Source of the DNA: Phascolarctobacterium sp.
GTDB lineage: Bacteria; Bacillota; Negativicutes; Acidaminococcales; Acidaminococcaceae
Assembly: GCA_030531205.1 (NCBI GenBank)
Contig: JAUNOC010000011.1
Coordinates: 1-42,127, forward strand
Direction: 5' to 3'
Length of the DNA stretch: 42,127 nt
How positions within the stretch are numbered: the stretch's first letter is position 1; the number at the start of each line of letters is the position of its first letter. The translations under genes and the position numbers were made by a program. Under the pieces are notes generated by a model. It was not told where the DNA came from. It worked only from the letters and a program-made list of their open reading frames with translations, and searched no databases. This document shows positions 793 to 11,665 of this stretch, one piece after another.

Positions 793-839
793 TATAGTCA
801 ACGCTCAACACAAACGCTTTCACTCTTCACTTTCATTTC

Positions 840-1133
840 AAAAAAATTCTCTCATTCAAAACTAAAAAAATCATGAAAAGTTGTTTTCAAAATCGCGAGA
901 TTTTATATCAAAGTCGCGAGATTTTAACTTTTGAATTTTGCTGCTTTGAACGAAAACAAAAGTCCTCTTCACACTGAAAGTATTTTCATCACTGAACTCA
1001 CTCGTCAGCAAAACACAATTAAAAGCGTGAAAAACGATTTCTAAAATGACGTCATTCTATTACAAAATAACGTCATTTTGAAATTAAGATTTTGCTGTTC
1101 CAAATGCTTTTTAACGCTGAGTGAAAAGCGAAA
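840..1133 (+). repeat. 294-bp two-hairpin repeat element, copy A
   Basis: This stretch matches 10973-11266 over its full 294 bp with no gaps and two substitutions that I can find. A diverged third copy is at 25113-25407. Each copy holds two stem-loops in fixed places (here about 889-924, core TCGCGA, and 1043-1079, core TGACGT), joined by a conserved linker that starts AAAGTCCTCTTCACACTGAA. No coding frame is conserved. Copies A and B are in the same orientation and bracket the whole riboswitch and fusion-gene locus. Confidence 0.85.
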
Positions 1134-1136
1134 TAA

Positions 1137-1553: not shown

Positions 1554-4500
1554 TTAGAAGGTAAACTGCAAACCAACCATAAACGCTCTTCCCGGCATTG
1601 CATAATATTTGCGTTCTCCACCAGCAGTTAAATATGGATCTGTTCCGTCATTTGTATGTTCAGCATAGAATTTATTGAAAATATTCTCAATCTTACAATA
1701 TAACTTCATATTTTTAGTTGGTTTATAATTCAAACTCAAATTGTATATTCCATAATTATCTACGGGGAACTCCCGTCTTCCACTATTATCCAACTTACGG
1801 AAGAACCATGTCCCGTCTATTCCACCACTAAATTTTCCACATTCATAGAAAAATGCAAATGTCGCTAAATCTCTTGGATAGTATCCCAAACTATAAGAAT
1901 CGTCATTACTGCTCTTTTCAAATAAATGAGACCATCCTAAATTAAAGTTCCATTTATCACTTAACCTTGATGTATATTGGGCATTCCATCCTCTGCTTAC
2001 CCCGCTTGTGTTTATACGAGTTGTTCCGCTCCAACCAATTCCTACTTCTTCCTTTGTTTGAAAATAATTGACTGTGAAAAAGTTATTGTCATCAAATTTT
2101 TTATTGTAACCTATACTCTCTGTTCTTCCTTCTGCCGGTTTAAGATTTTTATTGCCATAAACAGGATCAAACATTTGATCCATGCTCGGCAATATAAAGT
2201 ACTCACTACGTCCTGCATAAACTGTATCCTTCTTGGTGACATCCCATGCCAATTTATAACTTTTACTGGTATGATCATCAACATTTTCATGATTCGTGTG
2301 GTCACGCCTAATACCACCACTTAAAGTCACATGAGGAATTATCGTCCAATCTTCATTTATATACATAGATGTGTTGCGAATATCATCCCTATCCCAATTA
2401 CTCTTGACACCCGTCATTTTTTTATCTTTAGCATAGGAATAATCTGCTCCCAATACCATATTATGACGATTATTATGGAAAGTTACCTGATCAGAAATAA
2501 AAGTATAAGCATAATCAGTATCACTGGTTTCCAACATATATCCAGCATAATATTGTTGTTTATAATTGCGTTTTTCTTCATTCTTTCTATATACAAATAC
2601 ATTGCTCCAATTATCATTAATTTTCCAGTCATCACGGACACTCCACATTGTTGAATCATACTTACCATCATACTTATTACTGTAAACATAATCGGAACCG
2701 TTAAAATGCGAACTGATGTCCATATAGTCAAAAGTCAGTTTATTGTTCTCATTAAAAGCATAAGTTATTTTCGTACCAAAATTCTTAGTTTTAGTATGAC
2801 CTTCCCATTTGTCACCGTTACCATCCGTTATATCCCCTTGTTTAAATGTTCCCTGATAAATATTATAGGTCATTTTACCGCCTTTACCCATAGTGTTAAA
2901 TTTGTAATCCTTACGCCCAAAACTTCCTACAGATGTATCAACTATAGTTTTGTTTTCCTGAATTTCCCGTGTAATAATATTAATTACGCCTCCTTTGGCA
3001 CCACTTCCATAAAGAACCCCTGCCGCCCCACGTAAAACTTCAATACGTTCAATGTTATTCATATTGTTAAGAACACCAGCATACATATTCCCCGATTCGC
3101 CAACACCTTGGAAATCATTAATTTTTACACCATCAACTAAAATGGCAATATCCTTACTACCATTAATTCTTACAGAACTAAGATTACCATTCATTTGATT
3201 ACCACCGCCATAATTATTAAATTGCACACCAGGAACAGTCCGCAATGCTTCTTCAACAGTGGTTATATTCATTTCTTCAATTTCATGGCGGGTTACCACG
3301 CTTACATCTGCTGTAGCATCGGTAATCCGTTGTTTTGTTTTGGTTGCCGTAACAATGCACTCGTCCATGACATAAGTGTTACCGCTGCTATGTACCGGTT
3401 TTGCTTGTGCTACAGCCATGCTGTCACCCACAGTTACGCTGTCATTTTCTACCTGAGTACCAGTGATATCAGAAGCAACTGCCTCAACTTGTTGAACCTG
3501 GTTCGTCAAATTGCTTACAGGCACTGCCTCAGCATCTGATTTTTGCCCCTTGTTGCTGCAATTGCCAAAGAAGTCGCTGATGTGATTGAAAGTAAACATC
3601 AAACCTACATCCACACGCCATTTTTCCTTCACATCCCCGCCAAAACTCTTACTGAAGGAACCATAAAGCAGGGCATCATTCTTCAACTTCACGCTGCCGC
3701 CAAATTGTACTTCCTTCCAAGTATCCTTAAAGTCCACACTGGTACCGGAAGTAGGTTCACCAGGTGCACTGTAAGTGGTATCGAAACCGCCAGCAAACTC
3801 ATGTGCCAAACCAAGTTTAGCATAATAAGAATACCTGTCCGCTTCCTTGCCAATGCTGATACCAATACGGCCGATAGCACTGTTGAAGGCATCCTGCTTC
3901 ACGGTCATACTCTTATCATAATATTCACTGTAGGCATCATAATTTTTGGAATTAATCCGTCCTAAAGTGAACTCAACGGCTGGAGTAAGCACCAAACCAT
4001 TCTTCAAATTGATATGCTTACCATATTCCGCACTAACGCTCATACCGAAGTTCTTATAATCACCATCTAGTGAATAACCGTAATCATTGTAAACGGTATA
4101 TTCATTCTCCAGACGGCTAAACTTACCAATCAAATCAATATATTCGCCGTTCTTGTTCACCTTAGTCCCATAGAAGCCCAAGGACTGAACCTTGTTATCG
4201 CTGCTACCGCCGTTGTTCAAACTGCCGCTGCCGTCATCATAACTAAAGGCAATGCCACCCAACCAACCATGACCTAAGGTCTTATCCACACCGACTTGAA
4301 CTGCTTTATATTTGTTACTGAAGGAACCATTATTGTTGTATTCCTGACGTCCACTGTAATATTTAGCCCAAACACCTGCCTCTTCCTTCCTCAGTTGCAA
4401 ATCTCCCATACGCTTGTTCAAATCATTTGCCTCGGCCCTCCAAATCATAGCGGTGGAAGCCATCGCCATTTTGGCTCCCCGCATCATAGCGGTTTCTGTA

Positions 4501-7500
4501 TCTCCATAAACAATTTCCCCATGTGCCAATGTATCACGCAATGTAGTGCGGTCAATAGATGCAGGTTCAGCATCAAATTTATAATCTGCAATATGCGATA
4601 CCATAGTAGGACGGGTCAACCCCTCACCAATACCAACCGTACCTTTAATGTTTCCTTCTGTTGCATAGTTAGTATAAAGCAACTTATTAGCCACGGCCTC
4701 CATTGTATCCAAAATAGAATCAGGGTCATTCATATCAATACCAGCATTTAGCGTCATCATATTAATTACAGAACCTGAAGCCGCACTAACAATCCTTACT
4801 GTCCCGCCGAGAATAGTCGTAGGCGTTGCCGCTTCATGCCCATAAATAATTGTCATACCTCCGCTGTAATTATCAATGGTCACATTTCCACTTGAAGCAT
4901 TGCTCATATCCAAAAATGCTTTGCCGGCTCCACCACCCTTTAATGTAAAATTATTCCCCGTACTGCTGCTTGCACCCATATTAACCCATGTTCCTTGTGT
5001 AAGATTGACATTAATTACATCACCGTTGGCACTGCCACTCCATTTTGCCCCATGACTGTTAATATCAATATTAAATTCTGCATCTTCATTTTGATAATCG
5101 CCATCCCAATATGACCTATCCGTCATCAAAGCAATATTGAACGAACCACTTGTGTTTTGCACGTCACCTATAAATTGCACATCCCTTTTGCTAAACACCT
5201 TTTCATTACTGCTATTCACATATTCACCAATATATATGGAAGAACCATCTTTCATATCGATAGCAGGATTACTTACTGTGCCATCACCTGACCCTGCAAC
5301 AGCATTACTCATTTCGGCACCATCAATAACGACTTTCTTTCCCTCACCAACATTAATCAATTTTTGACCATCCTGCCCCTTCATCCTTACCGCACCGTTA
5401 ATATCAACATTACCGTTTGATGCGTCAATAACAGGAGAAGTTTTTTGGTCGGCAACCAAAACCAAAAGATTATTGCCGTTTTTAACAATAACATCAGCAT
5501 TGGTTGCATTAGTGTTTTGAGTAACAATTGCAGAACCAGTTGTCACTTCAACTTTGATGCCGTTAGTCATTGTATAAGTTCGCTCTGTGCCAGAACCCGA
5601 AACATCTACATTTTCAAAGTTATCATCCTGCAACCCACCCAATGGTGTTTCTGCCAACGTTTTATTTGTCTCTGTTGTAAAATACCCCTTGCCACTGCCA
5701 TCAAAAGCAATATAGCCACCATAACTTGTGCCGTCAATTTTCAATTTGCCTATCAAATTTTCATTTCCTGCAGTATAGTACAACTGTCCTGCCAAAGCAT
5801 TAAGTACCTGCTGATAATTTTCCGCAGTAACACCTTCATTGCTTGCTATCAATGTTATAACACTGGCAACATCTGCATTGGCAATAGACATAACCCCACC
5901 GGACATACTGCTGCCACTGTTGGAATAATTTACATTAATATTTCCGCTATAACTGCCTACGATAATTTTATCATCGGAAACTATATTAATTTTTCCTGCA
6001 TCTGTGTTATTTTCGCCACCCGTTAACGAAGTTATATGTGAAACACCGTCATAACTTCCATAGAACATAAAACTCGGATCCGGCATAGTACCAGCACTCA
6101 ACCCATCCATCTTGGAAGCATTCTCATAATTCCAAGTGCCTCCATTCTGCAAATAAAGATTAAACTCACCTGCCTGAGTATTACCTGTATTATCCACAGC
6201 ACCGATCCACAAGGAATCAGCAGTGGTCAAAGCCAAATTAATTACACCGCTACGATAAAAATACGGATTGTTTCCGCTTCCATAAGCATCTTTCATAACA
6301 ATGGCATTACCTGAAATATTTACTTTACTGTTGTCAGGATTACCGTTCTTCATGTTGATATTAATCGTTCCGCCAAAATTAGCCAATGAATACAAACCGA
6401 CATCTTCCGAAGAACTGACAACAATATTTGTATTTCCATTTACATTTACCACAGCCAAATCCTTATCAGCATAATTTGGATCTGCATAATATGGGTCTGT
6501 AACAATACCATGACCATCAACATAAGCAGTTAATCCATCCGTAATATTAATTGTACTGCCATGTCCCATGTTCATATTGATAGCGGCTCCTGTCCAACGG
6601 GTACCTTCATAAAAACCGTAAGCACCATGCTTATCTTCTGCCATTACCCCGGGAGCATCCGCACTCCCCATTGTTACCTTACCATTAATGGTCAAATCTG
6701 TTTTCTTGCCAATGCCGGTTCCACCTATAACCATAGCAATACCTGCCGCACTATAAGATTCTGAATAAGAAGAAACATTCACATTACCATTTATCGTTAC
6801 ATTCGCCCCATCATTCAAAACAATACCTAAATTTCTATTAGTTTTGCCATCAAAATAAATAGCATTGCCGTCACCAACATCAATAACCGCTTTACTGTCT
6901 GGTGCTGCATTAAGTGAATGATAAGAATATGCCTTATCTGTCAAATTATAATTGACAACGTTATTTGATGAAGTAATTTTATCATTCAAGAACGCCTTAT
7001 CCTTCATGGTGGCAGTCAATACATCACTTGATACATCTGCCGGAATCGGATCAACCGGTTCGGCAGGCGGAACAATATCTTTATAAACGCCCTGACCTGT
7101 TTCAGCAATATAGCCAAAATTGTCGCTAAATAATGTGGCACTGCTTCCTGTAAGACCTTCAGCAATTCCCACACTGCCGCTCAAATTTCTTTCACCGTCT
7201 ACATACGCTGTGTAATACAATTTTCTCGCCAAGGCCCCCAAAACATTATCTACAACAGTTGTGTTTGAGGTATTTATTCCTTGATTATCGGTAATCAAAC
7301 TAATGTTAGACCCTGATGCCGCATTTTTAATAATAATATCACCGGCAGAATAATCTGTTATTGCTGTACCGCTATTGTTATGCGAAAAGATAAACTTAGT
7401 ATAACCGCTGTAGCTGTCAATCGTAATAGGTCTTGCGTCATTTTGAACAATAATACCTGCTGTTGCCGCAGTAGCCCCACCAGTTAATTTATTAATCCGT

Positions 7501-10223
7501 GAACCAAATAATCCGGAATCATTTTCATAGAAACTCAAGCCAGCATATGGGTGTTCATCTGCATGTCCATACAATTCATTAGTCCATGTTGCACCATTAG
7601 CCAACCATAAATTAATTTCACCACGGAACGGAACCGCACCAGTAACATTATTTGAATAAGCATTATGAGCCACACCAATCCAAGTAGAATCAGCAGTGTT
7701 CAAACCCAAATTAATAAAGCTCTCATAATGATTAGGATCTAAACTGCTGTTATCCGCACCACAGGTTACACCCAAGTTACCCTTAATGTTTACTTTCTTA
7801 TTTCCTGCCCCAGTAACATTACCTTTAACAGCGCCAACAGTATCCTTAGTCACGTTCATATAAATATAACCGTCTTCCGCCCGCATAGCATCATAAACCG
7901 TATCGCCACCAACCATGCCCCCAGTTGTGCCTTCTTTGTAAATTGTCGGATCGATTTCAATGTAACCGCCACCATCAATATTGATTACACCGCCACCACC
8001 GTTGATATAAAGTGCCGCCGCCTGAGAAACAATATCCACGTCACCGGTAATATTCACACCGCCAGATTTTTGGCAGGCATTCAAACCACTCTGAACATAC
8101 ACCGCCGCATTGCCAAAATATACAAAACCAAGAGTTGCACCATTAGTGCCATAACCATTAGTACCCCATTTACCATCTGCTGTGTCAGGATCTTTAATGG
8201 TCAAATTACCATCAATGTTTACAAAAGAATTAGCAAAAGTATGAACACCCATTAATGCTGTAAGACCTGCATAAACCTTAATTTCCACATCACCCTTGAT
8301 GTTCATTTGCGTAGGATTGTCATAATCAGTATTTTTGATACTGATGGCTTCCGCCCGCTTGGTGTTGTCCAAATTGATTTTTAATGTTCCCACATCAATT
8401 TTAATTGTGTTGTTATTTACATTTGATCCATCTTTATTAAGTTGATAAATACCATAGGCAGTTGTGGCATCACCTGTTACATTCAAATTTAAAGTTTTAC
8501 CACTACCAATAATTTCCACATTACCTGTATTGGTAATTCCCCTGTAATCAGCACCACTGCCGCTCAAAGTAATCGTGGTAGTATCATCCAAATGATACTT
8601 CCCATCCTCACGCAAAATACCAGCCTTCTTATACTCTTTATCATTACTCTCCACACCGGTAATCATATTACCCAAAGCAAATTTTGTTTGTGCAGTTTTA
8701 TATACATCCGGCTCATAACTGCCCTTGCCTGTTAAATTATCAAAAACAATATTGCCCGCTTTCAGCATAACCGAACTTGCGGTCAATCCTTCGGCTATCT
8801 GTACATAACCGGCTAAATTTTCTTCCCCTGTTATATAGCCAATGTAGTAAAGTTTGCAGGCCAAAGCGGTCAGGACATTATCCACTATTGTGTTATTCGC
8901 CATATCAATACCTGTGTTATCAGTAATCAAGGTAATAGATGTACCGGCATTGGCAGAAGTTATCTTAATATCTCCTGCATAATCACTTGCTTCATCACCG
9001 TCATTAGTATGAGCATAGAACACCTTAACCATACCATCCAATTTATCAATGGTAAGAGCATTAGTGTCCTTCATCATAATTATGCCTTCAGTACCAGCCG
9101 CACCGCCGGTCAGATTGGTGATATGACTGCCGTTAAACCCTGTTTGGTCACCCCATTTATCATTAGTCCATATTGCACCATTCTGCAACCACAAATTAAC
9201 AGTTCCCCCATTATTATAAGCCACACCTTCCCAAGTGGAAGTACTCTTGGTCATTGCCAAATTAACAGTACCGGAATTAGTAGCAACCACATTACCGTTA
9301 ATCTTTACCTCATTAGTATGCGGTACTGCTCCAAAGGTAATTACACCCTTGGAAAAAGTGTCTTTCAAATTAATATCAATTTGACCCCCATCTGCTAACA
9401 AAGCCGCATAATTATTTGTATTAGCGTTATCTACATAAATAGTAGTTGCTGAACTTGCTTTATCACTGCCAACCGCCACCTTGGAACTGGACTTGGACAC
9501 AATACCATTGCCCTGAACATAAGCAGTGTACTTGGGAACTAAAACCTCACTGTTATTAGTTGCATAAATTCCTGCCGCCTTATCACTGCCGGTAGCAGTT
9601 GTACTTAAACCATAAGTAATGGTGTCACCACTTTTACTGCCAATGGCGAAATCCTTAACCGCAGTCCCATAAGCACCAATAAAAGTACTGTTATCCGCAT
9701 AAAGTCCGTAGACACCTGCTGCTCCGGAAACACTAATATTGGTTGTCATAAAAGGCATATATCCTAAACCATTATTCAAATAAAAACCATAAGCATTTGC
9801 GGTTCCTGATGCCGTGGCATTCAAAACCAAATTTGATGTTGTTGCAGTAGCGGAAGTAAAATTAAAATCACCACCATTAATGATATTAATTGCTACCATA
9901 TCATCATCTGCGGTAATGCCGTTAACCGTTAATGTCTTACTTTTACTATTTACCAACCATGCATTAGTACCATCCAAAGTAATGCCATCCAAAGTTACAT
10001 CGCCGGCATAGGTATATTTTTTGTAGCTGGTCTTTGTTGTACCCGTATTTTTAGGATTAGCTGTAGAACCAGTTGTAATTCCACCCGATTTAACACCTGT
10101 GGATGCAACTGTATCGTCAGCAGTACCTGTAATAGTCAACGCCAATGCAAAACTCGGTGCCAGCATCATGCCGCCCAACACCGTTGCCAAAATCGCCTTA
10201 TTCAATAGTTTCTTTTTGAACAT
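1554..10223 (-). CDS. Autotransporter fused to a BtuB-like TonB-dependent receptor (2889 aa, two outer-membrane barrels)
   Basis: One frame encodes two complete outer-membrane proteins. Residues 1-28 are a signal peptide (FKKKLLNKAIL...SFALA). Residues 30-1930 are a beta-helical passenger with four related modules. Each module ends in a block like LARKLYYTAYVDGERNLSG, near residues 450, 990, 1470 and 1836. Residues 1950-2214 are an autotransporter barrel (GVWAKYYSGRQEY to WRVDVGLMFTF). A 70-residue linker follows, then a TonB-box-like DECIVTAT (about 2284), a plug domain (VVTRHEIEEM, ILVDGVKIND, IERIEVLRGAAGVLYG) and a receptor barrel ending GRAFMVGLQFTF. The receptor half has no signal peptide of its own, so it depends on the fusion. 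The chosen ATG has AAGGAGG 5 bases upstream; the longer GTG start at 10241 would include that site. The plug resembles BtuB, and the cobalamin riboswitch upstream supports B12-type import. The exact substrate is an inference. Confidence 0.9.
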   Translation of the reverse strand: MFKKKLLNKAILATVLGGMMLAPSFALALTITGTADDTVASTGVKSGGITTGSTANPKNTGTTKTSYKKYTYAGDVTLDGITLDGTNAWLVNSKSKTLTVNGITADDDMVAINIINGGDFNFTSATATTSNLVLNATASGTANAYGFYLNNGLGYMPFMTTNISVSGAAGVYGLYADNSTFIGAYGTAVKDFAIGSKSGDTITYGLSTTATGSDKAAGIYATNNSEVLVPKYTAYVQGNGIVSKSSSKVAVGSDKASSATTIYVDNANTNNYAALLADGGQIDINLKDTFSKGVITFGAVPHTNEVKINGNVVATNSGTVNLAMTKSTSTWEGVAYNNGGTVNLWLQNGAIWTNDKWGDQTGFNGSHITNLTGGAAGTEGIIMMKDTNALTIDKLDGMVKVFYAHTNDGDEASDYAGDIKITSANAGTSITLITDNTGIDMANNTIVDNVLTALACKLYYIGYITGEENLAGYVQIAEGLTASSVMLKAGNIVFDNLTGKGSYEPDVYKTAQTKFALGNMITGVESNDKEYKKAGILREDGKYHLDDTTTITLSGSGADYRGITNTGNVEIIGSGKTLNLNVTGDATTAYGIYQLNKDGSNVNNNTIKIDVGTLKINLDNTKRAEAISIKNTDYDNPTQMNIKGDVEIKVYAGLTALMGVHTFANSFVNIDGNLTIKDPDTADGKWGTNGYGTNGATLGFVYFGNAAVYVQSGLNACQKSGGVNITGDVDIVSQAAALYINGGGGVINIDGGGYIEIDPTIYKEGTTGGMVGGDTVYDAMRAEDGYIYMNVTKDTVGAVKGNVTGAGNKKVNIKGNLGVTCGADNSSLDPNHYESFINLGLNTADSTWIGVAHNAYSNNVTGAVPFRGEINLWLANGATWTNELYGHADEHPYAGLSFYENDSGLFGSRINKLTGGATAATAGIIVQNDARPITIDSYSGYTKFIFSHNNSGTAITDYSAGDIIIKNAASGSNISLITDNQGINTSNTTVVDNVLGALARKLYYTAYVDGERNLSGSVGIAEGLTGSSATLFSDNFGYIAETGQGVYKDIVPPAEPVDPIPADVSSDVLTATMKDKAFLNDKITSSNNVVNYNLTDKAYSYHSLNAAPDSKAVIDVGDGNAIYFDGKTNRNLGIVLNDGANVTINGNVNVSSYSESYSAAGIAMVIGGTGIGKKTDLTINGKVTMGSADAPGVMAEDKHGAYGFYEGTRWTGAAINMNMGHGSTINITDGLTAYVDGHGIVTDPYYADPNYADKDLAVVNVNGNTNIVVSSSEDVGLYSLANFGGTININMKNGNPDNSKVNISGNAIVMKDAYGSGNNPYFYRSGVINLALTTADSLWIGAVDNTGNTQAGEFNLYLQNGGTWNYENASKMDGLSAGTMPDPSFMFYGSYDGVSHITSLTGGENNTDAGKINIVSDDKIIVGSYSGNINVNYSNSGSSMSGGVMSIANADVASVITLIASNEGVTAENYQQVLNALAGQLYYTAGNENLIGKLKIDGTSYGGYIAFDGSGKGYFTTETNKTLAETPLGGLQDDNFENVDVSGSGTERTYTMTNGIKVEVTTGSAIVTQNTNATNADVIVKNGNNLLVLVADQKTSPVIDASNGNVDINGAVRMKGQDGQKLINVGEGKKVVIDGAEMSNAVAGSGDGTVSNPAIDMKDGSSIYIGEYVNSSNEKVFSKRDVQFIGDVQNTSGSFNIALMTDRSYWDGDYQNEDAEFNIDINSHGAKWSGSANGDVINVNLTQGTWVNMGASSSTGNNFTLKGGGAGKAFLDMSNASSGNVTIDNYSGGMTIIYGHEAATPTTILGGTVRIVSAASGSVINMMTLNAGIDMNDPDSILDTMEAVANKLLYTNYATEGNIKGTVGIGEGLTRPTMVSHIADYKFDAEPASIDRTTLRDTLAHGEIVYGDTETAMMRGAKMAMASTAMIWRAEANDLNKRMGDLQLRKEEAGVWAKYYSGRQEYNNNGSFSNKYKAVQVGVDKTLGHGWLGGIAFSYDDGSGSLNNGGSSDNKVQSLGFYGTKVNKNGEYIDLIGKFSRLENEYTVYNDYGYSLDGDYKNFGMSVSAEYGKHINLKNGLVLTPAVEFTLGRINSKNYDAYSEYYDKSMTVKQDAFNSAIGRIGISIGKEADRYSYYAKLGLAHEFAGGFDTTYSAPGEPTSGTSVDFKDTWKEVQFGGSVKLKNDALLYGSFSKSFGGDVKEKWRVDVGLMFTFNHISDFFGNCSNKGQKSDAEAVPVSNLTNQVQQVEAVASDITGTQVENDSVTVGDSMAVAQAKPVHSSGNTYVMDECIVTATKTKQRITDATADVSVVTRHEIEEMNITTVEEALRTVPGVQFNNYGGGNQMNGNLSSVRINGSKDIAILVDGVKINDFQGVGESGNMYAGVLNNMNNIERIEVLRGAAGVLYGSGAKGGVINIITREIQENKTIVDTSVGSFGRKDYKFNTMGKGGKMTYNIYQGTFKQGDITDGNGDKWEGHTKTKNFGTKITYAFNENNKLTFDYMDISSHFNGSDYVYSNKYDGKYDSTMWSVRDDWKINDNWSNVFVYRKNEEKRNYKQQYYAGYMLETSDTDYAYTFISDQVTFHNNRHNMVLGADYSYAKDKKMTGVKSNWDRDDIRNTSMYINEDWTIIPHVTLSGGIRRDHTNHENVDDHTSKSYKLAWDVTKKDTVYAGRSEYFILPSMDQMFDPVYGNKNLKPAEGRTESIGYNKKFDDNNFFTVNYFQTKEEVGIGWSGTTRINTSGVSRGWNAQYTSRLSDKWNFNLGWSHLFEKSSNDDSYSLGYYPRDLATFAFFYECGKFSGGIDGTWFFRKLDNSGRREFPVDNYGIYNLSLNYKPTKNMKLYCKIENIFNKFYAEHTNDGTDPYLTAGGERKYYAMPGRAFMVGLQFTF

Positions 10224-10282
10224 CATTTCCTCCTTATACACTCATCCCCTTGCCCTCTTTCGCAAAGATTGTGTTTTTGAAC

Positions 10283-10361
10283 AAAATAAAAACCTGCTTT
10301 AACATGCTTCGGCAATCTGTTCCCCACTTGAACAGACCGCCTAAGACATGTCATTGCAGGT
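10283..10361 (-). terminator. Strong terminator-like hairpin just upstream of the fusion gene
   Basis: On the minus strand ACCTGC and CATG pair with CATG and GCAGGT at the base. An upper 12-bp stem, GGCGGTCTGTTC with GAACAGATTGCC (two G-T pairs), closes on AAGTGGG. A TTTTTATTTT run follows. The other strand also ends in a T-run (10361-10370), so the hairpin could act in both directions. It lies 60 bases before the ATG with no promoter in between that I can see. Transcripts of the fusion gene must therefore read through it, which suggests a second control point. Confidence 0.7.
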
Positions 10362-10366
10362 CTTTT

Positions 10367-10444
10367 TTATTGATGGCACATCCGGCTTTAACGGTTAGAA
10401 ATGATAGCGGCTGGGTTTCACAGCTCTTTCGGCTTAATCAATAA
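10367..10444 (-). promoter_or_regulatory. Unidentified structured leader RNA (closed stem, possible aptamer)
   Basis: TTATTGAT and ATCAATAA form a perfect 8-bp closing stem around 62 bases that contain GCTG-TGAAACC-CAGC and a second weak stem, CCG...CGG. It lies between the small ORF and the second terminator, the usual place for an aptamer. I could not match it to a riboswitch class that I know. Confidence 0.4.
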
Positions 10445-10449
10445 CAACT

Positions 10450-10623
10450 TTATTCTGGTTTGCCCGGTTTCACCCTCCTTTCACCGCTCTTGCGTCTGAT
10501 TTTATGCCTGAGTACCAACACCTCATGCAAGAGTTCCACATATTCCAATCTGTTGATGACTACCAAATTCTGCTTTTCTAACAAAAGCTTTTTCCGTAGT
10601 ACTTTGATTTCCTCAGTTTTCAT
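10450..10623 (-). CDS. Small basic helical ORF (57 aa) between riboswitch terminator and fusion gene
   Basis: The peptide starts MKTEEIKVLRKKLLL and is rich in Lys, Arg, Leu and Glu with a basic tail (RRKSGERRVKPGKPE); it has no signal peptide. I do not recognise it. ATG 10623 directly follows the T-run of the riboswitch terminator. Its ribosome-binding site (GAAAGGA) is the 3' arm of that terminator, so terminator folding would also hide it. A GTG at 10641 lies inside the hairpin and is less likely. It may be a leader peptide, a real small protein in the B12 regulon, or a chance frame in a long leader. Confidence 0.4.
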   Translation of the reverse strand: MKTEEIKVLRKKLLLEKQNLVVINRLEYVELLHEVLVLRHKIRRKSGERRVKPGKPE

Positions 10624-10654
10624 AAAAAAATCCTTTCGCACTACGCAAAAGGAT
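10624..10654 (-). terminator. Terminator forming the expression platform of the cobalamin riboswitch
   Basis: Minus-strand ATCCTTTTGC pairs with GCGAAAGGAT (10 bp, one T-G pair) around GTAGT and is followed by seven T. It sits about 60 bases after the aptamer. Upstream of it, ATCACA and TGTGAT (10668-10689) form a small hairpin. Confidence 0.8.
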
Positions 10655-10714: not shown

Positions 10715-10885
10715 ATTAACTTGACAACACTCGGCAGGTCTTCTGACTCAGTTTCAACACATATTTCCCCTTCTCGGATGGTGAATCCAATGGATAAAGA
10801 AATATGCTCCACATTACAGCTACGGTGACAGCATCGGGTTCTAACCGATTTCCCATTTTAAGCACATAGCACCAAATGTTCTCTT
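10715..10885 (-). promoter_or_regulatory. Cobalamin (B12) riboswitch aptamer
   Basis: Reading the minus strand, the class hallmarks appear in order: GGTGC, TTAAAATGGGAA, GGTTAGAACCC, GATGCTGTCACCGTAGCTGTAA, a CCATTGG segment, and the B12 box GAGTCAGAAGACCTGCC. The order and spacing fit the adenosylcobalamin family. With the terminator that follows, it should stop transcription when B12 is plentiful. The next large gene downstream is the autotransporter/TonB-receptor fusion, the expected kind of target. Confidence 0.93.
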
Positions 10886-10899
10886 ATGAAGTTATAACA

Positions 10900-10928
10900 A
10901 TGATAGCACTAACGCCTTAACTTGTCAA
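10900..10928 (-). promoter_or_regulatory. Promoter of the riboswitch transcript
   Basis: TTGACA (10923-10928) and TATCAT (10900-10905) are 17 bp apart on the minus strand. Transcription would start about 10 bases before the aptamer. Confidence 0.75.
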
Positions 10929-10972
10929 GGATTTTAATCAAAATAGGAATTATTCTCAGTTCCAACTGTTCC

Positions 10973-11266
10973 AAAAAAATTCTCTCATTCAAAACTGAAA
11001 AAATCATGAAAAGTTGTTTTCAAAATCGCGAGATTTTATATCAAAGTCGCGAGATTTTAACTTTTGAATTTTGCTGCTTTGAACGAAAACAAAAGTCCTC
11101 TTCACACTGAAAGTATTTTCATCACTGAACTCACTCGTCAGCAAAACACAATTAAAAGCGTGAAAAACGATTTCTAAAATGACGTCATTCTATTACAAAA
11201 TAACGTCATTTTGAGATTAAGATTTTGCTGTTCCAAATGCTTTTTAACGCTGAGTGAAAAGCGAAA
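10973..11266 (+). repeat. 294-bp two-hairpin repeat element, copy B
   Basis: Same length and orientation as copy A (840-1133), with two differences by eye (G for A near position 24 of the element and again just after the second stem). The two stem-loops and the linker are unchanged. With copy A it forms a direct repeat around about 9.8 kb that contains the riboswitch and the fusion gene. The ORFs crossing it are not supported. Confidence 0.85.
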
Positions 11267-11665
11267 CAAAAAAATAGTCCGCTGAATGCGAACTGTTTTT
11301 TCCCGCCCAGGCGTGGGCGGGGTGGATTGCCTAAAGGAACATAGAAGGGCAAGACGGGGTGGGTCGCTCTCCTCGACTGAAGAATTGAACTTAACATAGC
11401 ACTGACTATTGCTATAATCACAGGAACTCTTTACCATATTTGTTCTTTATTCTTTGATTATTTGGTCTTTATTCTTATCGCAGAGAGCGACCCCACCACC
11501 GTCTTTCTACGTTCCTTTAGACGGTCCCCCGCCCCACGCCTGGGGCGGAAAAAGTTAGCACTATGCCACCTTTCCTGAAACCTGACACCTCATACCTGAA
11601 ACCTAAATATATAATCACTGGAACATTTTACCATAATTACGCATTACGCATTGCGAATTACGCAT
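11267..11665. repeat. Composite intergenic inverted-repeat element
   Basis: It begins AGTCCGCTGAATGCGAACT and has a GC-rich hairpin, CCCGCCCAGGCGTGGGCGGG, at 11304-11323. Two AATCACAGGAACTC/CACTGGAACATT motifs lie at 11415 and 11610. A mirrored half (GAGCGACCCCACC...CCGTC...GTTCC) closes with CCCCGCCCCACGCCTGGGGC. The two halves can pair over a long distance with many interruptions. The stretch ends in short tandem units (CCTGACACC, CCTGAAACC) and ATTACGCATTGCGAATTACGCATT units. No gene is seen. Confidence 0.65.

Follow-up and report, generated by a model that had tools for sequence, protein, structure and literature searches.

Fusions of an autotransporter and a TonB-dependent receptor downstream of cobalamin riboswitches in Negativicutes

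The locus and its features

The window analyzed here, a stretch of 42,127 nucleotides from a genome of Phascolarctobacterium sp., carries on its minus strand a single long gene in which an autotransporter is joined to a TonB-dependent receptor. The frame is open without a break from the ATG at 10223 to the stop codon at 1554-1556. The gene is composed of the following parts:

1554..10223, minus strand: fused autotransporter-TonB-dependent receptor gene, 2,889 codons and a stop
10140..10223, minus strand: signal peptide, residues about 1-28 (sequence inspection; gene start kept in G002, a genome of the same genus)
4452..10139, minus strand: passenger, residues 29-1924, four related repeats, beta-helix (repeat comparison, AlphaFold2, PDB matches)
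3588..4451, minus strand: autotransporter helix and 12-strand barrel, residues 1925-2212 (PF03797, model)
3366..3587, minus strand: periplasmic linker, residues 2213-2286, disordered, without signal peptide (pLDDT <50, hydropathy)
3345..3365, minus strand: TonB box DECIVTA, residues 2287-2293 (structural alignment with BtuB, alignment with unfused receptors)
2985..3323, minus strand: plug domain, residues 2301-2413 (PF07715)
1557..2984, minus strand: 22-strand TonB-dependent receptor barrel, ending in GLQFTF (PF00593, model, VIA-align)

Pfam models match the fused protein well over their cut-offs, with Autotransporter at residues 1951-2190 (118 bits for PF03797), Plug at 2301-2413 and TonB_dep_Rec_b-barrel at 2459-2848. 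The protein thereby combines the features of a type Va autotransporter (signal peptide, beta-helical passenger, helix and 12-strand PF03797 barrel) with those of a TonB-dependent receptor (TonB box, plug and 22-strand barrel). Outer-membrane proteins are normally viewed as having one barrel per chain and a C-terminal assembly signal. In the window protein the autotransporter barrel is internal, and 677 residues of linker and receptor come after it; the assembly signals of both barrels are retained, GLMFTF at the end of the last autotransporter strand and GLQFTF at that of the receptor. A hydropathy scan of the 74-residue linker revealed no signal peptide ahead of the TonB box, the best 15-residue value being 0.87 versus 1.24-2.0 in the signal peptides of five unfused relatives.

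The gene shows a shift in GC and third-position GC close to the autotransporter/receptor junction. The fused gene and its leader are also flanked by a 300-bp direct repeat (window 836-1135 and 10969-11268, 99% identical), a member of a dispersed family that has 43 matches genome-wide; if the two copies recombined, the fused gene could be lost.

Structural models of the two halves

AlphaFold2, run on residues 1925-2889 with an alignment of 17 sequences as guide, yielded two separate, complete barrels of 12 and 22 strands (mean pLDDT 76.6, pTM 0.62). N-terminal helices precede the 12-strand barrel, and the pLDDT of the linker falls below 50 at residues 2214-2288. An earlier note, made from the sequence alone, had described two barrels in one polypeptide and proposed that their structure be predicted; both Pfam and the model bear out that description, and they support the topology it put forward, in which linker, TonB box and plug follow the autotransporter barrel in the periplasm. 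The Foldseek and VIA matches listed for this model concern the receptor half, the identity of the autotransporter barrel being given by Pfam and the strand count. For the receptor half, VIA-align gives Escherichia coli BtuB as the best match (530 residues at rmsd 2.8, Z 37.4), although Cir comes almost level. The alignment begins at BtuB residue 6, the start of the BtuB TonB box, and pairs it with model residue 363 (Asp2287 of DECIVTA). E. coli BtuB, the top structural match, shares TonB box, plug and 22-strand barrel with the window receptor. It stands alone, however, and has its own signal peptide, whereas in the window protein an autotransporter barrel precedes the receptor within one chain.

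The four related repeats of the passenger emerged from a comparison of segment against segment, although self-BLAST of the whole protein found no internal repeats. One repeat (residues 1080-1545) was modeled by AlphaFold2 as a beta-helix, with UpaB and pertactin as best PDB matches (Foldseek E <0.001). The fold is that of an ordinary pertactin-like beta-helix, and no recognized corrinoid-binding domain was found in the passenger. Both type Va proteins share with the window protein the signal peptide, the beta-helical passenger, and the helix with its 12-strand PF03797 barrel. They differ in that their barrel is C-terminal, whereas the window barrel is internal and its gene lies under a cobalamin riboswitch.

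The riboswitch leader and the evidence on substrate

The leader upstream of the fused gene contains two riboswitch-like elements, each followed by a hairpin:

10900..10928, minus strand: promoter-like TTGACA-17-TATCAT just upstream of the riboswitch (consensus scan, 11/12 matches and an extended TG)
10716..10891, minus strand: cobalamin riboswitch aptamer RF00174 (97.1 bits, gathering cut-off 31.5)
10630..10654, minus strand: intrinsic terminator right after the aptamer (11-pair stem, then TTTTTT; identical in G002)
10450..10623, minus strand: small ORF of 57 codons between the two riboswitch-like elements (read from the sequence; largely kept in G002)
10367..10444, minus strand: second B12-riboswitch-like element, AdoCbl-II RF01689 (29.9 bits, E 0.0012, below the curated gathering cut-off of 36.5; identical in G002)
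10290..10365, minus strand: long hairpin, then a U tract (fold z-score -4.47 for 10280-10460)

The terminator at 10630..10654 is likely the OFF expression platform of the RF00174 aptamer, and the hairpin and U tract at 10290..10365 are probably the terminator of the AdoCbl-II-like element. The window thus presents the two marks of a cobalamin-riboswitch regulon, a same-strand RF00174 upstream of the gene and a likely expression platform. A scan of the 1.33-Mb genome detected the window copy at 10716-10891 as its sole RF00174 match. In G002 the leader is near-identical (100% identity over 10860-10661), and both the riboswitch and the gene start MFKKKLLNKAIMATVLGGMMLAPNFAFA are retained, the gene being interrupted by the contig end. 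The btuB gene of E. coli is itself known to be controlled by a B12 riboswitch. In each of the 31 fusions described below, an RF00174 copy precedes the gene on its own strand by 64-2,537 bp, the longer gaps usually being filled by other genes of that strand.

The riboswitch is evidence for regulation by B12, not for B12 transport. As for the substrate, the top NCBIfam model for the receptor half is TonB-B12 (TIGR01779), at a score far below its curated equivalog cut-off (149.1 vs 599.7 bits). The genome also encodes proteins with B12-binding domains, as well as a separate, standalone BtuB-like receptor located among cobalamin-salvage-like and ABC-transporter genes. The suggestion of the earlier note that cobalamin could be the ligand has gained from the riboswitch(es) upstream, from the resemblance of the fold to BtuB and from the btuF/btuC-like genes that follow a related fusion in the genome G053; we infer from these that a corrinoid is the substrate of the fused receptor.

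Recurrence of the fusion

The genome G053, which belongs to the same family but to a different genus, encodes the same domain order in a single frame of 3,548 amino acids. Residues 1697-2889 of the window protein align with it end to end, across the junction, at 39% identity. As in btuF/btuC, the genes that come after the fusion code for a periplasmic binding protein and a permease of the FecCD type. Genes reading like CobN, magnesium-chelatase and nitrogenase-like subunits are found nearby (L058), and they may form a possible tetrapyrrole cluster.

Among the matches listed (380 genomes of the class, E <=1e-35), the window and G053 proteins are the only fused members of their receptor clade. 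The closest unfused relative of the window receptor (G039, 49%) is encoded 70 bp after an autotransporter gene, with a signal peptide of its own, while in G349 and G323 the unfused receptor is located just before an autotransporter gene. These pairs belong to the receptor clade of the window, yet they consist of two separate genes in varying order, with a signal peptide on the receptor. Two candidates were rejected: in G013 the receptor has a signal peptide and is set apart by a terminator-like gap from the autotransporter upstream of it, and a 24,355-residue “open frame” with a receptor match in G028 consists of masked N and is not a giant gene. A pattern-based search of GTDB r220 contigs returned no close relatives of the stretch from residue 1921 (autotransporter barrel and receptor), and phage records gave no match to the fusion.

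A second clade came to light with a 1,709-residue protein of G015, which has the same domain order and a receptor unrelated to that of the window; a sequence search with its receptor half revealed many fused relatives across the class. In total, local HMMs identified 31 fusion proteins in 23 genomes, two in clade 1 and 29 in clade 2, the latter from 21 Negativicutes genomes, a recurrence well in excess of what chance would give. The search among other Negativicutes that the earlier note had proposed was therefore positive both in the receptor clade of the window and in a separate, widespread one. Pfam confirmed the fused architecture in all seven clade-2 proteins scanned (L057, L062, L108, L117, L124, L130 and L131), two of which bear the type V signal extension ESPR. 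The hosts include Phascolarctobacterium sp., Sporomusa acidovorans, Pelosinus propionicus DSM 13327 and Anaerospora hongkongensis. The copy in G012 has a frameshift within the passenger part. An unfused TonB-dependent receptor in G071 (L132 3131-6001) carries the ESPR extension of type V secretion and is perhaps a relic of a fusion that lost the autotransporter part. Relatives of the clade-2 receptors in Synergistaceae and Deltaproteobacteria were not fused by the HMMs used.

Repeated origin

The trees of the receptor half and of the autotransporter half both place the two fusion clades far apart, which indicates that the fusion arose at least twice. AU tests, based on small trees with long branches, also reject a single group of the window and G053 (receptor, p 0.013; autotransporter barrel, p 0.004), which suggests a third fusion event or a barrel swap within clade 1. 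The higher third-position GC of the window autotransporter barrel fits a swapped cassette. The separation of the clades, together with the rejection of the window/G053 grouping, argues that the fusion is convergent, and its origins are probably three in number.

Proposed function and alternative explanations

The reading that we favor, and consider reasonably probable, is that of a two-barrel outer-membrane system in a single polypeptide, which imports cobalamin or related corrinoids through an importer tethered to a surface autotransporter and is made under B12 limitation. When B12 is scarce, the cobalamin riboswitch(es) would permit transcription into the fused gene. The chain would be exported by Sec, the autotransporter barrel would insert, and a beta-helical passenger of about 1,900 residues would be displayed outside the cell. 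The chain would then run on via the disordered periplasmic linker, presumably uncut, to the TonB box, through which import would be coupled to energy, and to the plug and the BtuB-like importer barrel, and the tether would hold one large surface passenger next to each importer. Most likely, the passenger would serve the importer, either by capturing and funneling corrinoids or their carriers, or by guarding the importer mouth. Ligand capture is only a guess, given the ordinary pertactin-like beta-helix, and since the two fusion clades have dissimilar passengers, the role of the passenger may be unconnected to the ligand.

The closest functional parallel is found in the pedal-bin complexes of Bacteroides, in which a BtuB-type importer acts with a separate surface lipoprotein, BtuG, in corrinoid uptake (PMC10404256). 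In both cases an importer is paired with a large surface-exposed partner, but BtuG is a separate lipoprotein, whereas in the window an autotransporter takes this place, linked covalently to the importer, and its binding of B12 is hypothetical. A fuller version of our proposal, tentative and held at somewhat less than even credence, is that two unlike barrels per chain, for secretion and TonB-dependent import, evolved at least twice in Negativicutes, with the passenger as a tethered corrinoid capture arm or lid, i.e. a counterpart of the BtuG lid.

Several other explanations have to be weighed against this one. The shift in GC near the junction and the near-identical repeats on both sides of the gene might hint at an artefact confined to this genome, whereby mis-assembly or a lost stop codon fused two adjoining genes. 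This is highly improbable: the repeats lie outside the gene and not at the junction, and the architecture occurs in 30 other proteins from 22 other genomes, named cultured strains among them. The same domain order in an independent genome of another genus (G053), together with the second clade, shows that the gene is not an accident of assembly. Nor does the linker hold a leftover receptor signal peptide, in agreement with the view of the earlier note that these are not two genes with a lost stop. An unlikely but more serious contender is a polyprotein, translated once and cut in the periplasm at the linker into an autotransporter and a BtuB-like receptor, both of the ordinary kind and equal in amount. 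The linker is indeed disordered and variable in length and sequence, intact outer-membrane signals end both barrels, and the unfused relatives function as adjoining separate genes. Inspection of the linker ends disclosed no conserved cleavage motif, however, and in none of the 31 fusions does the receptor half carry its own signal peptide. Repeated convergent fusion also suggests that the covalent link is useful, although co-expression alone could account for it.

The passenger may instead act as a B12-regulated adhesin, which would hold the cell near B12 producers or host material and bind no ligand directly while the receptor half imports; we regard this as possible, if somewhat doubtful. 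Its beta-helix resembles pertactin and UpaB, other autotransporters are present in the window genome, and ORFs resembling trimeric YadA-type autotransporters have their own cobalamin riboswitch in G349 (L059, 12661-16679, minus strand, riboswitch upstream), where B12 may thus regulate adhesins. Adhesion alone does not explain why covalent fusion to an importer happened more than once.

Tethered import by a two-barrel chain, the reading favored here, seems to represent a hitherto undescribed type of nutrient-uptake protein. A search of open-licence PMC text, where absence is a weak indication, brought up neither a paper on an autotransporter-receptor fusion nor one on an autotransporter under a cobalamin riboswitch, and a paper on the Veillonella outer-membrane proteome makes no mention of fusions or chimeras; the architecture may already be listed in domain databases. 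Many genera have retained the arrangement of an internal autotransporter signal with a second, unrelated barrel behind it, and these proteins thereby offer a natural test of how BAM handles two barrels per chain and of whether TonB-dependent import is aided by surface passengers. They point to an undescribed strategy of corrinoid uptake in diderm Firmicutes, including cultured type strains open to study.

Gene neighborhood and copy number in clade 2

Most clade-2 fusions lie beside a conserved gene of 430-490 codons (e.g. L117 2244-3671 and L108 1569-2906) whose product has propeller-like motifs and lacks an evident signal peptide. Its PDB matches are limited to three chains of the YncE family, which have weak E values (0.016-0.04) and include chain B of the BtuB1-BtuG1 entry 8blw. 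A gene for an OmpH/Skp-like periplasmic chaperone is located between the riboswitches and the fusion in at least four loci:

L117 1596-2057: OmpH/Skp-like chaperone gene
L111 2255-2719: OmpH/Skp-like chaperone gene
L118 4933-5397: OmpH/Skp-like chaperone gene
L122 9145-9609: OmpH/Skp-like chaperone gene

Two to three fusion copies per genome are present in G141 (L107), G304 and G296, those of G141 being close together on one strand. Pelosinus propionicus DSM 13327 contains, beside an intact fusion, a second copy whose frame is broken in the plug (L143 11826-14612).
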